This document shows, in pieces, positions 2,377-27,210 of a stretch of DNA of 34,641 nt. Every line of letters begins with the position of its first letter. The stretch's first letter is position 1. A model generated the notes under the pieces. It saw only the letters and a program-made list of their open reading frames with translations. It made no database searches and was not told where the DNA came from. The stretch comes from Burkholderiaceae bacterium (GTDB taxonomy: Bacteria > Pseudomonadota > Gammaproteobacteria > Burkholderiales > Burkholderiaceae). Position numbers and translations under genes: made by a program. The stretch spans positions 1 through 34,641 of the forward strand of contig JAGWNU010000018.1 of NCBI GenBank assembly GCA_028871175.1, given 5' to 3'.

Positions 2377-4214
2377 CCGAACCCGCCGCCCGCTTCGTCC
2401 ACGACATGCCGTTCGGCACCACCGTTCTGCCCGATGGCACCACCCGCTTCCGCCTGTGGGCGCCCGATGCCGCTGAAGTCTGGGTCGATTCCGACAACCG
2501 CAACACCCTCCGCATGGCTGCGGAGCCGGACGGCTGGTTCGCCGTCGTGGCGCCGGTCGGGGAGGGTACGAGCTACCGGTACCGCGTCACCAGCCGGCAG
2601 GGGATCACCCTGTCGGTGCCCGACCCCGCCGCGCGCGCACAGTGGCAGGACCTGGCCGGCCCCAGCCTGGTCATCGACCCGCGACGCTACCGCTGGCAGC
2701 ATGCCGGCTGGCGCGGCCGGCCCTGGCACGAGACCGTGCTGTACGAGCTGCACGTCGGTGCGCTGGGTGGGTTTCGCGGCGTACGGGCGCGCCTGCACGA
2801 GCTGGCACGGCTCGGCGTCACCGCTGTCGAGCTGATGCCCGTGGCCGAGTTTCCGGGCGCGCGCAACTGGGGCTACGACGGCGTGCTGCCCTTCGCGCCC
2901 GACGCAAGCTATGGCACGCCCGACGATCTCAAGGCGCTCATCGACACCGCGCACGGTCTCGGCATCATGGTGTTCCTCGATGTGGTCTACAACCACTTCG
3001 GGCCGGACGGCAATGCCCTGCATCACTACGCACAGGGCTTCTTTCGGGATGACGTGCATACACCCTGGGGCGCGGCCATCGACTTTCGCGTGCCCGAAGT
3101 GCGTGAGTTCTTCATCCAGAACGCGCTGATGTGGCTCATGGAATATCGCTTCGATGGCCTGCGGCTCGACGCCGTCCACGCCATCACCGAACGCGACTGG
3201 CTCGGTGAACTGGCCGCGCGCGTGCGCCTGGCGGCAGAGCCCGGGCGGCACGTCCACCTCGTGCTCGAGAACGAAGACAATGCGGCATCGCTGTTGCGCG
3301 ACGCGGGCGCCCACGGCGATTTCGACGCCCAATGGAACGACGACGGGCACAACGCCCTCCACGTGCTGCTGACCGGCGAGCACGAGGCCTACTACGCCGC
3401 CTATGCCGATGCGCCCGCCCAGCGGCTCGCACGCGTGCTGCAGGAAGGCTTCAGCTACCAGGGCGAGCCCTCGCCCATCCACAACAACGCACCGCGTGGC
3501 GAGCCAAGCGCCCACTTGCCGCCGACCGCGTTCGTGCTGTTCCTGCAGAACCACGACCAGATCGGCAACCGTGCCTTCGGCGAACGCCTGACCCAACTCG
3601 TGCACCCAGACGCGTTGCACGCTGCGCAGACGCTCCTGCTGCTGAGCCCCCAGATACCGATGCTGTTCATGGGCGAGGAATGGGGCAGCACGTGCCCGTT
3701 CCTGTACTTCACCAGCCATCACGGCGCACTGGCCGATGCCGTGCGTGAGGGACGCCGGCGGGAGTTCGCCAGGTTCGCGGCGTTTGCCGACCCGCATCAG
3801 CGCGCGCGCATTCCCGACCCGAACGACGAGCGCACCTACCTCGCGTCTTGCCCGGGCGAGGCCGACGCACGCAACCCCGAACACGTCGGATGGCTCAGCC
3901 GCGTGCACCGGCTGCTGGCCTTGCGCCACGCCGAGATCATGCCCCGACTGCCCGGCGCCCGCGCGCTCGACGCCGTGCCGCTTGGCGCCACCGGCGCGCT
4001 GGCCCGCTGGCGCCTGGGCGATGGCAGCCTGCTGACGCTGGCGCTCAACGTCGGGGCCCAGCCCGTTGCCGTGCCCACCGCGCTCGCCGGCAGCCCGGCC
4101 GATCTGCTGCACGAGTCGCGTGAGGGCGCGGCGACGGCACTCATCGCGCATCGACTGCCCGGTCGCGCCTGCGTGGCCCTGCTGCACAGGCCCATGCCCG
4201 CCTCATTCGCCTGA
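2373..4214 (+). CDS. treZ: Malto-oligosyltrehalose trehalohydrolase TreZ
   Basis: This GH13 enzyme (EC 3.2.1.141) releases free trehalose from maltooligosyl trehalose, the second step of the TreY-TreZ pathway. The protein is 613 residues. An N-terminal E-set domain (about 10-95) is followed by a catalytic barrel with VVYNHFGPDGN, the nucleophile D266 in GLRLDAVHAI, the acid/base E299 in LVLENED and D395 in QNHDQIGNR. These are TreZ-type variants of the GH13 motifs. The frame stays open upstream into glgX, but the start at 2373 is preferred: it gives the 4-base ATGA overlap with glgX, a GGAG ten bases upstream, and a normal family N-terminus. malQ follows after 5 bases. Sits in the cytoplasm. 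Confidence 0.95.
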   Translation: MTEPAARFVHDMPFGTTVLPDGTTRFRLWAPDAAEVWVDSDNRNTLRMAAEPDGWFAVVAPVGEGTSYRYRVTSRQGITLSVPDPAARAQWQDLAGPSLVIDPRRYRWQHAGWRGRPWHETVLYELHVGALGGFRGVRARLHELARLGVTAVELMPVAEFPGARNWGYDGVLPFAPDASYGTPDDLKALIDTAHGLGIMVFLDVVYNHFGPDGNALHHYAQGFFRDDVHTPWGAAIDFRVPEVREFFIQNALMWLMEYRFDGLRLDAVHAITERDWLGELAARVRLAAEPGRHVHLVLENEDNAASLLRDAGAHGDFDAQWNDDGHNALHVLLTGEHEAYYAAYADAPAQRLARVLQEGFSYQGEPSPIHNNAPRGEPSAHLPPTAFVLFLQNHDQIGNRAFGERLTQLVHPDALHAAQTLLLLSPQIPMLFMGEEWGSTCPFLYFTSHHGALADAVREGRRREFARFAAFADPHQRARIPDPNDERTYLASCPGEADARNPEHVGWLSRVHRLLALRHAEIMPRLPGARALDAVPLGATGALARWRLGDGSLLTLALNVGAQPVAVPTALAGSPADLLHESREGAATALIAHRLPGRACVALLHRPMPASFA

Positions 4215-19870: not shown

Positions 19871-21169
19871 TCAGGTGTCGGCATCGTTGGCGGTGTATTC
19901 ATAGGCGACCGTGCCCTTGGGGTGCCTGTACCAGCCGGGGTCAGCGTAGCTGCCGCGCGGCAGGTCGCGGCGCACCTTCATCACGGTGAACATGCCGCCC
20001 ATCTCGATGGCGCCGAACGGGCCCTGCCCGGTCATCATCGGGAGCGTGTTGTCGGGCAGCGGCATTTCCATCTCGCCCATGTCGGCCATGCCCGCCTGGC
20101 CCATGCCCATGTAGTCGGGCACCAGCGCGTTCATCTTCTTGGCAAGATCTTTCTGCTGCACACCGATCATGGTGGGAACGTTGTGCCCCATGGCGTTCAT
20201 CGTGTGGTGCGACTTGTGGCAGTGGAACGCCCAGTCGCCGGGGTTGTCGGCGACGAACTCGATGGCGCGCATCTGCCCGACCGCCACATCCACCGTGACC
20301 TCGGGCCACCGCGCGCCGGGCGGTACCCAGCCGCCATCCGTGCCGGCAACCTCGAACGTATGGCCGTGCACGTGCATCGGGTGGTTGGTCATGGTGAGGT
20401 TGCCCATGCGGATGCGCACGCGATCGCCCAGGCGCACGGGCAGCGGGTCGATGCCCGGGAAGACGCGGCTGTTCCACGTCCACATGTTGAACTCGGTCAT
20501 CTGCGCCACGCGCGGCGTGTACGAGCCCGGGTCGATGTCATAGGCGGCGAGCAGAAAGATGAAGTCGCGGTCGACACGATGCTGCGCGGGGTCCTTCGGG
20601 TGCACGACGATCGAGCCCATCATCCCCATCGCCACCTGGACCATCTCGTCGGAATGGGGGTGGTACATGAACGTCCCGGACTTCTTCATCTCGAACTCGT
20701 AGACGAACGTCTTGCCTGGCGGAATGTGCGGTTGCGAGAGGCCGCCGACGCCATCCATGCCGGCCGGCAGGATCATGCCGTGCCAATGCACCGTGGTGTG
20801 CTCCGGCAGCTTGTTGGTCACGAAGATGCGCACGCGATCGCCCTCCACGCATTCGATCGTCGGGCCGGGGCTCTGGCCGTTGTAGCCCCACAGGTAGCCT
20901 TTCATGCCAGGTGCGAATTCGCGCTCGACGGGTTCGGCGACCAGATGAAACTCCTTCCAGCCGCCCCGCATGCGCCAAGGCAGCGTCCACCCATTCAGGG
21001 TCACGACCGGGTTGTAGGGGCGGCCATTGGGCGGCGCGAGCGGTGGCTGGGTAGCGGGTTGCGATTGCAGCGGCGCTTCGGGCAGTGCAGCGGCGCCGGC
21101 GCGCGAGACCATCGCCGCGCCCAGCATGGCCGCGCCCGTGCCCCCGAGGAATTGACGTCGGGAAACCAT
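19871..21169 (-). CDS. Tat-exported multicopper oxidase, short form with Met-rich tail
   Basis: A 432-residue periplasmic copper oxidase, probably acting on Cu(I). It has a Tat signal (SRRQFLGG, residues 3-10). All four copper-binding motifs are present: HWHG (H128, H130), HPH (H170, H172), HPMHVHGH (H263, H266, H268) and HCHKSHHTMNAM (H316, C317, H318, H322, M327). Only about 75 residues separate the first and second halves, so two full cupredoxin domains fit rather than the three of CopA or CueO (500-600 residues). After the last motif a tail of about 105 residues contains 12 Met between 346 and 397. Start: ATG 21169, with AAGGAC upstream inside the preceding gene; the gap is 2 bases. Confidence 0.9.
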   Translation of the reverse strand: MVSRRQFLGGTGAAMLGAAMVSRAGAAALPEAPLQSQPATQPPLAPPNGRPYNPVVTLNGWTLPWRMRGGWKEFHLVAEPVEREFAPGMKGYLWGYNGQSPGPTIECVEGDRVRIFVTNKLPEHTTVHWHGMILPAGMDGVGGLSQPHIPPGKTFVYEFEMKKSGTFMYHPHSDEMVQVAMGMMGSIVVHPKDPAQHRVDRDFIFLLAAYDIDPGSYTPRVAQMTEFNMWTWNSRVFPGIDPLPVRLGDRVRIRMGNLTMTNHPMHVHGHTFEVAGTDGGWVPPGARWPEVTVDVAVGQMRAIEFVADNPGDWAFHCHKSHHTMNAMGHNVPTMIGVQQKDLAKKMNALVPDYMGMGQAGMADMGEMEMPLPDNTLPMMTGQGPFGAIEMGGMFTVMKVRRDLPRGSYADPGWYRHPKGTVAYEYTANDADT

Positions 21170-21171
21170 GT

Positions 21172-22581
21172 TCAGTGTCCTTGTGGAGAGTTGGGTCCAG
21201 ATGCGGGCGCATTGGCCTCGGCGGGTGGCAGCTTGCCGCCCAGCGCCATCTGCAGGTCCGTCTGGGCAAGCCAGTAGCCGCGCAGCGCATCGATGTAGCC
21301 GTTGACGGCATTCACCTGTTCACGCGCATCGGTCAGCAGTTCGAACACGCTGACGAGCATGCCGTTGTAGCGCAGCAGCATCTCGTCGGAGATGGTCTTG
21401 CGCAGCGGCACGACCTCGTCACGGTAATGACGCGTCAGGTCATACGCGGTCTGGTAGCGCACATACGATTCCCGTACTTCGGAGCGCGCGCGCACGGCCG
21501 TGTCCGCCAACTGGTCGGCAGCTTGCATGTAGATCGCTTGCGCACGCGCCACGCGCGCGCCGCCCCAGTCGAACAGGGGAATCTCGATGCCGATCTCGTA
21601 GCCCGTTTCGCGGGGCGCGCCGGTCTTGCTGTTGCGCACGTAGCCCAGGTCCAGCACGTTGATGAAGCGTGTGGCCCGTGTCAGCCCAAGCGAAGACGCC
21701 AGCCCATCGACCTGCAGCTTGCCGGCCTGAATGTCCAGCCGGTTGCGCAGCGCGTAGGCTTCGATCTGCTGCAGCTCCGGGCGATCCTTCGGCAGGTCCG
21801 GCAGGCGCTCGGGCAACGTGAATGCGATATCCGCGCCCCACACGCCGAGCATGCGGATCAGCGCCTCGCGCTCGGCCTGCGCCTGCTGGCGCGCGCGCGC
21901 CAGACTGGCGGTGGCCTCCGCATAAAAGGCCTGTTCGCGGGCGCGGTCCAGTTTGCTGAACGTGCCGGCAGCCGCCAGACGCCGCGCATACTCGGCCCCG
22001 GCCTCCGCCGCCTGCTGCACTTGCGCCGCATACGCTGCCGATTGCTCTGCCGCCACGGCATTGACGTACGCCCGCCGCGTGTCTGCCGCCACCTGCAGCA
22101 TCTGGTTGGCGACCAGCAGCTTCGTCTGCTCGAAGTAGCGGCTTTCGATGCGCGAGGCCATCGGCAACGTCAGCAGGTTGAGAAACGACAGTGAAAACGT
22201 GCGCTCGATCGACAGGTCATCGCCGCTGCGCGTGCGCTTGAAGGTAAAACCCGGGTTGGGCAGACGGCTGGCCTGCACCAGCGCCGCCTCGGACAGGCCA
22301 AGCTCCGCATACGAAGCCTGCAGGCCCCGGTTGTTGAGCAGTGCGATCTGCACGGCGCTGTCCATCGTGAGCGGCTGGGCCAGCAATTCGCGCGTGCGTT
22401 GCGCTGCGCTGTCGCGTGCCTCGGGCGAGCGTTGCCACGTGGCGTCCTTGCCAAGCCGGTCGCGCGCCACATCGGCAACCGTCTTGAAGCCGCTGTCCTG
22501 CGTGATGCTGGCGCACCCGCCAAGCAGCAGCGTGGCGGCCAGCGCCCCGACGGCGAGACGGCGCATGGAAGTGTTCAGCAT
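21172..22581 (-). CDS. TolC-family outer-membrane factor lipoprotein (CusC/CzcC-like)
   Basis: A 469-residue outer-membrane channel component of heavy-metal efflux type. The signal peptide has a lipobox LGGC (C23), as in CusC and CzcC. The rest has the TolC repeat layout: two long helical, Ala/Gln/Arg-rich halves (about 140-250 and 360-450) separated by beta segments such as NPGFTFKRTRSG and YEIGIEIPLFDWGGARV. The start at 22581 is set by GGGAGG and the lipoprotein signal. It is followed 2 bases later by the oxidase gene. An outer-membrane factor normally works with an RND pump and a membrane-fusion protein, and neither is in this operon; the partner must be encoded elsewhere or the protein has another role. 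Confidence 0.88.
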   Translation of the reverse strand: MLNTSMRRLAVGALAATLLLGGCASITQDSGFKTVADVARDRLGKDATWQRSPEARDSAAQRTRELLAQPLTMDSAVQIALLNNRGLQASYAELGLSEAALVQASRLPNPGFTFKRTRSGDDLSIERTFSLSFLNLLTLPMASRIESRYFEQTKLLVANQMLQVAADTRRAYVNAVAAEQSAAYAAQVQQAAEAGAEYARRLAAAGTFSKLDRAREQAFYAEATASLARARQQAQAEREALIRMLGVWGADIAFTLPERLPDLPKDRPELQQIEAYALRNRLDIQAGKLQVDGLASSLGLTRATRFINVLDLGYVRNSKTGAPRETGYEIGIEIPLFDWGGARVARAQAIYMQAADQLADTAVRARSEVRESYVRYQTAYDLTRHYRDEVVPLRKTISDEMLLRYNGMLVSVFELLTDAREQVNAVNGYIDALRGYWLAQTDLQMALGGKLPPAEANAPASGPNSPQGH

Positions 22582-22591
22582 GGCGCCTCCC

Positions 22592-22936
22592 TCAGTGATG
22601 GTGCATGCCGGGCATCGGCATGCCAGCGGGCATGTCTGGAGCCGCGGCGGGCGCGCTCGCCGGCATGGCATGCCCAGCGTGGTCGCTCTGCCCTGATGCG
22701 CTGCTACGGGGCTTGGGTGCGACAGCAGCGTTGGTCTCGCGCCAGGGCGCCGGGCCAGCGTCGCGATAGGCGTGGAAGCGATCGAACGTGCGCGGCGCAG
22801 AGACTGCGGGCACGGATGCTTCGGCATTCAAGGGATCAGGCGGGGCGACTGGCGCGGACGCTGCACCTTGCGCCACTGCCCATGGCGACACCAGTGCCAG
22901 CAGCGCGGCGGCCGCGAGCCATCGTGTGTAAGACAT
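22592..22936 (-). CDS. Secreted Met/His-rich small protein of the copper operon
   Basis: A 114-residue protein with a signal peptide (cleavage near AVA-Q, about residue 23), an Ala/Pro-rich middle with RTFDRFHAYRDAGPAPWRE, and a C-terminal tail rich in His and Met (SDHAGHAMPASAP, then PAGMPMPGMHHH). The tail suggests Cu(I)/Cu(II) binding in the periplasm. No named family is recognised. It ends 10 bases before the TolC-type gene and has a short GAGG upstream of its ATG. Position and composition suggest a copper scavenger or donor to the outer-membrane factor; this is inferred. Confidence 0.78.
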   Translation of the reverse strand: MSYTRWLAAAALLALVSPWAVAQGAASAPVAPPDPLNAEASVPAVSAPRTFDRFHAYRDAGPAPWRETNAAVAPKPRSSASGQSDHAGHAMPASAPAAAPDMPAGMPMPGMHHH

Positions 22937-26164: not shown

Positions 26165-26193
26165 TTGCCGGGAAGGCACCGCCCCGGTAGAGT
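26165..26193 (+). promoter_or_regulatory. Candidate promoter of the riboswitch-spherulin transcript
   Basis: TTGCCG at 26165-26170 (4/6 to TTGACA) is followed after exactly 17 bases by TAGAGT at 26188-26193 (4/6 to TATAAT). Transcription would start near 26200, leaving about 20 bases before the aptamer. Spacing and placement fit the riboswitch better than any other pair seen. Confidence 0.4.
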
Positions 26194-26220
26194 CTCCGTC
26201 CAATGGGCTCCAGCCCAGAG

Positions 26221-26292
26221 CGGAGGCAAAACCGGGGTAATCCGGTGACGCAAAGCTATAGGGACTTCTGACGAAGTCAGCCAGTTACCCGA
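26221..26292 (+). promoter_or_regulatory. c-di-GMP-I riboswitch (GEMM aptamer)
   Basis: The sequence reproduces the GEMM-I architecture. GGCAAA at 26225-26230 opens the three-way junction. P2 is a 6-pair stem (26231-26236 with 26241-26246, the last pair G-U) closed by a GUAA tetraloop of the GNRA type. The invariant GACGCAAAGC follows at 26247-26256. P3 is GACTTC/GAAGTC (26263-26268, 26273-26278) with a 4-base loop. AGCCAGTTACCCGA (26279-26292) closes the junction. A short P1 can pair CGG (26221-26223) with CCG (26289-26291). The G before CAAA favours c-di-GMP over the cGAMP-sensing variant, as recalled from work on this class. It lies 63 bases before the ATG of the spherulin-like gene. Confidence 0.9.
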
Positions 26293-26350
26293 AGGCCTGC
26301 CATGGCCTCGGGCCAATGGATGCACGCAAACTCCAGCGTGCTCGGGAGGC
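26288..26350 (+). promoter_or_regulatory. Putative expression platform of the riboswitch
   Basis: A hairpin of nine pairs with one bulged A can form between 26288-26297 (CCCGAAGGCC) and 26304-26312 (GGCCTCGGG). Its left arm overlaps the 3' edge of the aptamer, so it should exclude P1. Its right arm contains GCCTC (26305-26309), complementary to GAGGC (26346-26350) in the ribosome binding site GGGAGG (26344-26349). No T-run is present, so control of translation rather than termination is suggested. The pairing choice is inference. Confidence 0.45.
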
Positions 26351-26355
26351 ACACA

Positions 26356-27210
26356 ATGAAAACAACGCACACGGGGGGGCGCACGCCCGCATTCGCCGCA
26401 ACGCTCGCGGCATCATTGGCAGGCAGCGCAACGCGCAGGTTTGTGCGCGTCGCCTGCTCGGCCGTGGCACTGGTGGCGGGCGCACTGACCGGCGCGCCGC
26501 ACGCCAACGCCGAAGGGCTGCTGGTGCCAGCCTACATCTACCCATCGGGCAGTGGCGCGACGCAGTGGAGCACCCTTGCCACCACGGCCCAGACCGTACC
26601 GACCACCGTCATCCTCAACCCGAACAGCGGCCCCGGCACCACCCAGGATCCGAACTACGTGGCAGCCGTGGCCCAGGTTCACGCCGCAGGCGGCAAAGTG
26701 ATCGGCTACGTATCGACGTCGTACGCACAGCGCTCGCTCTCCGCGGTGGTGCAGGACATCAACACGTATCAGGCGCTGTACCAGGTGGACGGATTCTTCA
26801 TCGACGAGATGACCGCGGACAGCGTGACCGCGCATATCCAGTTCTATCAGTCGGTCTACAACTACATCAAGGGGCTGTCTTCGGCGTACACGGTCACGGG
26901 CAACCCAGGCACCAACGTGCCGGAGATCTATGCGAGCCTGCCGGTGGCCGACCAGATCGTCGTGTTCGAAGACAGCGCCAAGCACTACAAGACGTACGCT
27001 CCCCTGGCCTGGCAGGCGAACTACCCGATCAGCCGTTTCGCACATATCGTCTACGCGGCGTCAGCCACGCAGATGCTGACGTTTGTGGCTAACGCATCAA
27101 GCCTTGGCGCTGGCAGCGTGTATATCACCTCCAAGACGCTACCCAATCCATATGGAGCGCTGCCGAGCTACTGGAGCCAGGAAGTCACCGCGGTGTCGGT
27201 TGCAAAATGA
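26356..27210 (+). CDS. Secreted spherulin-4 family (GH135-like) glycosidase
   Basis: A 284-residue exported protein: a long basic N-terminus, a hydrophobic stretch and a cleavage site near ANA-E (about residue 52). The mature domain matches the spherulin-4 family: LVPAYIYPSG, TTVILNPNSGPG, GKVIGYVSTSYAQR, VDGFFIDEM, GNPGTNVPEIY, VVFEDSAKHY. Fungal Sph3 of this family is the founding GH135 enzyme and hydrolyses galactosaminogalactan with an Asp-Glu pair and a later Glu. The equivalents here appear to be D150, E151 and E205. A TIM-barrel hydrolase cutting a GalNAc-containing or related exopolysaccharide is inferred. The ATG at 26356 is chosen for GGGAGG 7 bases upstream and for the signal peptide. 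The c-di-GMP riboswitch in its leader ties it to biofilm control. Confidence 0.85.
   Translation: MKTTHTGGRTPAFAATLAASLAGSATRRFVRVACSAVALVAGALTGAPHANAEGLLVPAYIYPSGSGATQWSTLATTAQTVPTTVILNPNSGPGTTQDPNYVAAVAQVHAAGGKVIGYVSTSYAQRSLSAVVQDINTYQALYQVDGFFIDEMTADSVTAHIQFYQSVYNYIKGLSSAYTVTGNPGTNVPEIYASLPVADQIVVFEDSAKHYKTYAPLAWQANYPISRFAHIVYAASATQMLTFVANASSLGAGSVYITSKTLPNPYGALPSYWSQEVTAVSVAK

Follow-up and report, generated by a model that had tools for sequence, protein, structure and literature searches.

The locus and its parts

The window analysed here is a whole 34,641-nucleotide (nt) stretch, contig JAGWNU010000018.1 of assembly GCA_028871175.1, from a Ralstonia-group bacterium of the Burkholderiaceae (assembly of 4.06 Mb in 372 contigs, 90% complete). 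Our subject is a gene for a spherulin-4/GH135-type protein and its leader, which carries a class I riboswitch aptamer for cyclic diguanylate (c-di-GMP). An earlier note on this DNA, made from the letters alone, had placed a c-di-GMP riboswitch before such a protein, and family models confirmed both parts. The region singled out there began at 26165, the first base of a sigma-70-like promoter. The parts of the locus are as follows; handles beginning with L, G and C denote our loci or leaders, genomes and contigs.

26165..26193, + strand: sigma-70-like promoter, TTGCCG-N17-TAGAGT, present in 13 of 13 distinct Ralstonia leaders
26215..26292, + strand: c-di-GMP-I riboswitch aptamer (RF01051, 54.5 bits)
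26288..26312, + strand: predicted hairpin H1 (CCCGAAGGCC / GGCCTCGGG) of the free-state fold, overlapping the 3' end of the aptamer and mutually exclusive with it
26312..26314, + strand: GCC, the proposed anti-Shine-Dalgarno strand, its first two bases common to H1
26322..26341, + strand: predicted hairpin H2 (GCACGC / GCGTGC), present in free and forced folds of the leader sequences, between H1 and the Shine-Dalgarno sequence
26344..26350, + strand: Shine-Dalgarno sequence GGGAGG (26344-26349) plus the next C; GGC is the partner of GCC
26356..27210, + strand: spherulin-4/GH135-type gene, 284 residues; candidate catalytic residues D150, E151 and E205; signal peptide at about residues 1-52 by eye

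The aptamer exceeded the gathering score of RF01051 (54.5 versus 35 bits; E = 3.7e-8 for the window), and the related model RF03168 matched the window below its own cut-off (52.9 versus 65.9 bits). No second RF01051 match was found in the 90%-complete assembly of the same genome. G20, A47 and C92, the ligand-contacting positions of the class, are all present in the window aptamer. For comparison, 54 hits were reduced to 37 distinct leaders; L058 and L061 were dropped when the Shine-Dalgarno pattern missed them and were later checked by eye. L013 carries the aptamer core. G20 is kept in 36 of the 37 leaders and A47 in all 37, and C92 was fixed by the search pattern and is not an independent count. 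A variant aptamer for cyclic GMP-AMP, presumably marked by G20A, was not favoured because G20 is kept in all leaders except L033. We infer that the leader is a c-di-GMP-I riboswitch and would bind c-di-GMP.

The protein matched Pfam Spherulin4 (PF12138; E = 7.6e-51, 173.4 bits versus a cut-off of 30.2). Chains 5d6t and 5c5g of the fungal hydrolase Sph3 in the PDB also matched it (E about 5e-14), which gives it the Sph3-type barrel fold, and its Asp-Glu pair and distal Glu aligned with the catalytic residues of Sph3. Among 38 aligned proteins D150 and E151 were invariant and E205 was kept in 90% or more. The structural match that the earlier note had expected was thus found, with the catalytic residues in place, and its residue numbering fits a start at 26356. 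The signal peptide seen by eye predicts that the protein is exported.

Conservation of the riboswitch-gene pair

The earlier note had pointed to other Burkholderiaceae as a place to look for such pairs, and the pair recurs there. Among 220 genomes of the family, RF01051 was found in 27, PF12138 in 30 and both in 26, and the two were adjacent in all 26 (Fisher, 1.7e-28, not corrected for kinship; our Fisher and Mann-Whitney values assume independence of the genomes and of the leaders, though they are related). Of the 28 RF01051 matches in the family, 26 lay on the same strand, 165-301 nt upstream of the spherulin domain. Thus, the adjacency is more than chance.

Exceptions within the family were few. 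The only genome with the riboswitch and without the gene was G454. Four genomes had the gene alone. Two of them, G461 and G560, gave weaker matches (E = 1.5e-27 and 8.7e-26); in the other two, G538 and G590, a broken aptamer can still be recognised in the leader (L085, L084). The same-genus genome G517 had no riboswitch, no gene and no PelG, a protein of Pel exopolysaccharide synthesis. In G454, the RF01051 matches lie at C36:248186-248274 and C9:578581-578669, there is no spherulin gene, and PelG is present.

A contig scan of genomes yielded 47 related loci. In the 44 genomes of these loci that were searched, RF01051 was found in 34, in 29 of which it lay on the same strand, 32-223 nt before the matched stretch; it was not found in the other 10. 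In the five remaining positive genomes (L040, L041, L042, L043 and L045) it lay away from the gene; that of L043, 547 nt before the matched stretch, was left out of the adjacent count. The genome of L041 (Zoogloea ramigera, G037) carries five c-di-GMP-I riboswitches, two of them in facing orientation on a single contig, within a span of about 400 nt.

An order-wide link was not found. Among 399 genomes of the order, RF01051 was present in 149 and PF12138 in 12. Besides the window's own genome, those with both were G164, G165, G240, G270 and G359, and none was adjacent among the matches listed.

Predicted expression platform of the leader

H1 takes in the last bases of the aptamer, including C92, and two bases of its 3' arm belong to the GCC that is able to pair with GGC at the end of the Shine-Dalgarno sequence. 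Across the 37 leaders, pairing holds in 245 of the 259 cells of H1, and 14 changes affect both sides; when the register was slid by 1 or 2, 72-139 cells pair, with 0-5 such changes. GGC beside the Shine-Dalgarno sequence is kept in every intact leader checked, L058 and L061 included. A check made without the Shine-Dalgarno pattern missed only L068, which begins its gene with a codon other than ATG and does have GGC in its sequence. Where part of the aptamer is lost (L018 and L085), an A follows the Shine-Dalgarno sequence and H1 is retained; the degenerate L084 retains GGC.

The leaders were then folded with and without the aptamer forced. With 20 nt before the aptamer core, forcing added a mean of 1.61 kcal/mol to the cost of opening the Shine-Dalgarno sequence, and the increase exceeded 0.3 kcal/mol in 31 of the 37 leaders. 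The mean was -0.21 kcal/mol in 555 shuffles, 159 of which exceeded 0.3. The computed probability of the GCC/GGC pairing rose from 0.19 to 0.79 in this version. With 5' ends set by the promoters described below, the opening cost rose in 32 of the 37 leaders, and in the window the pairing probability went from 0.41 to 0.96. The folding of the leader thus predicts a translational OFF switch.

Promoters

We took the consensus of FliA (sigma-28) to be TAAA-N15-GCCGATAA. By this measure, a FliA-type promoter scoring at least 9 of 12 precedes the aptamer in 21 of 21 non-Ralstonia Burkholderiaceae leaders, 8-11 nt from the core in 20 of them and 22 nt in L012. Background 90-nt segments of the same loci reached the scores of the 21 in 0.4 to 5.7% of cases. 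The remaining 16 leaders (13 from Ralstonia, including the window, and 3 of Oxalobacteraceae type) scored at most 7. No FliA-type promoter was found in the window leader, where the best score was 7 of 12, a value reached by 53% of 90-nt segments.

In the Ralstonia leaders the sigma-70-like promoter lies 32-33 nt upstream of the aptamer core. Its pattern has a single match in the window on both strands, and from it we placed the probable transcription start of the window leader.

The FliA-type -10 element of the 21 non-Ralstonia leaders, L025 among them, lies very near the aptamer: at the usual spacing, transcription would begin 2-5 nt ahead of the core and leave almost no 5' strand for helix P1. 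Further, the near-identical leaders L018 and L085, together with L084, have broken aptamers and keep the FliA-type promoter and H1, which looks like natural sensor loss in Caballeronia.

Link to Pel

The earlier note had described the gene as lacking an adjacent pel-type cluster. This holds inside the window. The upstream neighbour is a TauE-type permease on the opposite strand and the downstream one a Na/Ca-exchanger family protein, and both look unrelated. Elsewhere in the window (19871-22827, - strand), a multicopper oxidase gene adjoins a gene for an outer-membrane efflux protein, which may be a copper-handling pair. The claim does not hold for the genome or for relatives. The same genome, which is assembled in 372 pieces, has PelG (PF16933) on contig C335 beside pelE and pelF, and pelA on C154. 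In 7 of the 47 loci, six from Paraburkholderia and one from Caballeronia, pelA-pelB and the riboswitch gene are arranged divergently. Two Zoogloea loci have the gene directly before pelA on the same strand, with no adjacent counted riboswitch.

PelG was present in 93 of the 220 family genomes and in all 26 that have both riboswitch and gene (Fisher, 1.8e-11); among such genomes from other genera than the window's own it was present in 11 of 11 (p = 1.6e-5). The gene-only genomes G461 and G560 lack PelG as well. Longer views of three loci (L081, L082 and L083, the same places as L029, L023 and L027) run from pelA to pelG. In L081, Pfam supports PelB, PelD, PelF and PelG, and PelA matches the solved PelA 9cgy (E = 1.7e-137); the PelC and PelE calls rest on gene order and on weak or general matches. 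Downstream of pelG in L081, a gene at 2946-4091 (- strand) resembles, by eye, one for a GH114-type galactosaminidase, and its start is lipoprotein-like.

PelA has a hydrolase domain of its own, GH166, and we considered whether the GH135 protein stands in for it. This was dropped, as L082 and L083 have a separate GH166 gene with intact motifs after pelG (L083, 17177-18121, + strand; L082, 2885-3814, - strand); many genomes have a similar second match. The PelA proteins of Paraburkholderia/Caballeronia type (L022, L023, L024, L027, L029, L035, L086-L088, L090 and L092) have a GH166 region about 45 residues shorter, often with altered motif residues (LDT to LET, ESL to DSL or GSL). In L082 and L083 it looks as if the hydrolase function of PelA has moved to its own gene. 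The Ralstonia PelA proteins (L099, L101 and L102) retain the full GH166 region; in that of the window's own genome (L099) the first motif is kept and the second was not found by the pattern used.

A proposed c-di-GMP switch for a putative matrix hydrolase

Taken together, these results incline us, by somewhat more than an even chance, to the view that the gene encodes an exported GH135-type Pel hydrolase and that a translational OFF riboswitch permits its synthesis at low c-di-GMP and blocks it at high c-di-GMP. At low c-di-GMP, the 3' end of the aptamer, including the ligand-touching C, would zip into H1. H1 would also bind up GCC, and therefore the Shine-Dalgarno sequence would stay open and the enzyme would be made. 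At high c-di-GMP, the aptamer would keep its 3' strand and H1 would lose its lower pairs; the released GCC would then pair with GGC and close the Shine-Dalgarno sequence. In Paraburkholderia and Caballeronia, the FliA-like promoter would place the enzyme in the motile, low-c-di-GMP state.

The most likely substrate of the protein is the Pel-type polymer that the cell itself makes, an alpha-1,4-linked chain of N-acetylgalactosamine (GalNAc) and galactosamine, although this is the weakest step of the mechanism. In Streptococcus intermedius, Sph3 disperses aggregates of GalNAc-rich Pel (PMC12345266). PelD is a receptor for c-di-GMP on which exopolysaccharide production depends (PMC2170427), and therefore one signal would raise Pel synthesis, through PelD and the neighbouring pel operon in Paraburkholderia and Caballeronia, and lower cutting. 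That many relatives keep riboswitch and gene together suggests that cells leave their own matrix uncut as long as c-di-GMP is high. The wider circuit, in which c-di-GMP sets synthesis and cutting oppositely, with the PelD protein turning Pel synthesis ON, an RNA aptamer turning the dedicated secreted hydrolase OFF and, in many species, a flagellar-type promoter adding the motile state, is put forward tentatively, at slightly less than an even chance. If it is true, an enzyme for matrix release would be gated by RNA and coupled to swimming.

Several points weigh against the OFF switch on a Pel hydrolase. The anchor patterns force H1 pairs 92 and 93 and the GCC/GGC pairing, so that H1 is freely tested only by pairs 94, 96 and 97 and, in part, by 91 and 95. 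The forced aptamer is a stand-in for ligand that carries no ligand energy term, and the shuffle control covers only the 20-nt version. With promoter-set 5' ends the opening cost did not rise in L003 (-0.93), L005 (-2.61), L015 (-0.16), L020 (-0.89) and L071 (-0.52), and the value for the window changes with the 5' end assumed, being -0.29 when 20 nt precede the core and +3.20 when the leader begins at the inferred start. In Ralstonia, to which the window belongs, the promoter is sigma-70-like instead of FliA-like. Further, pel does not lie within 6 kb in most of the loci seen, and Sph3 cuts re-N-acetylated Pel and not native Pel of P. aeruginosa (PMC9135694); the bacterial enzyme may differ from Sph3, or the Pel of these hosts may carry more acetyl.

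The same parts could work with the opposite sign, c-di-GMP turning the hydrolase ON so that it trims or releases Pel during biofilm building. c-di-GMP-I riboswitches of the ON type exist, and a FliA-driven transcript could be stored and then translated after surface contact; the hydrolase domain of PelA offers a parallel, as PelA hydrolyses and deacetylates Pel before export (PMC12022489). We consider this unlikely, as both folding versions indicate OFF in most leaders (31 and 32 of 37) and FliA-like promoters fit a motile state with low c-di-GMP. OFF at high c-di-GMP is most likely; it agrees both with the FliA-type promoters of relatives and with the role of PelD.

It is less probable still that the enzyme has foreign targets, either fungal galactosaminogalactan or the polymers of other bacteria, with c-di-GMP timing its release. 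Sph3, the characterised member, acts on fungal galactosaminogalactan (PMC8546845) and leaves native P. aeruginosa Pel uncut, as noted above, and the hosts are mostly soil and plant genera. However, the presence of the pair follows the genome's own Pel genes in 26 of 26 cases, and in two lineages, which differ in layout, the gene lies next to pel. Least probable is a platform that acts on transcription, for example on Rho access, with H1 as an anti-aptamer only: H1 does overlap the aptamer 3' end in the folded leaders, but an intrinsic terminator was rejected for the window, where inspection of the sequence (no terminator scan was made) found no T run behind H1, and the GGC of the Shine-Dalgarno sequence is kept, and is lost together with the aptamer in the one broken lineage seen.

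The observation of the earlier note is thus confirmed and its interpretation partly supported, with the core strengthened and the pel point corrected. The sigma-28-like promoters of relatives, the platform predicting OFF and the co-occurrence with Pel go beyond it.

Comparison with known systems

Biofilm biology has yet to explain how cells let go of a matrix of their own making, and most work on c-di-GMP concerns its protein receptors. In the present case, c-di-GMP would be tied straight to a matrix-cutting enzyme by a short RNA, and bacterial GH135 proteins would gain a likely natural substrate system in Pel. In the literature searched, whose coverage leaves out most subscription journals, we found no description of the riboswitch-spherulin pairing, no paper pairing spherulin with a riboswitch, and none joining a c-di-GMP riboswitch with a glycoside hydrolase and exopolysaccharide. 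Papers on spherulin-4 with c-di-GMP and on spherulin with Burkholderia were fungal only, and spherulin with Ralstonia led to cupin. The aptamer class and the enzyme family are known; the pairing and the circuit were not found in print.

Compared with other c-di-GMP-I (GEMM) riboswitches of RF01051, the window aptamer is alike in scoring over the family cut-off and in having the ligand-contacting positions, and differs in its target gene. A survey of GEMM regulons that includes Ralstonia and Burkholderia lists 21 polysaccharide-degradation genes, and its main text does not contain the word spherulin (PMC3766115); the window gene may already sit in its supplements. The nearest precedent for a c-di-GMP riboswitch of the FliA phase is the merRNA of Bdellovibrio, expressed in the FliA-governed swimming phase (PMC3627812). 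No conserved open frame follows merRNA, which has been proposed to store c-di-GMP, whereas the window leader precedes a gene.

In the accessible text of PMC12054363, fungal Sph3 is the one GH135 member named as characterised. Sph3 of Aspergillus (PDB 5c5g and 5d6t) is linked to galactosaminogalactan; the window protein, in contrast, is bacterial, carries a predicted signal peptide for export, stands under an RNA sensor and is linked to Pel, with a putative activity. The GH166 hydrolase domain of PelA (PDB 5tcb) is joined to a deacetylase within one protein of the synthesis operon, whereas the window protein is separate, putatively exported and under its own control.
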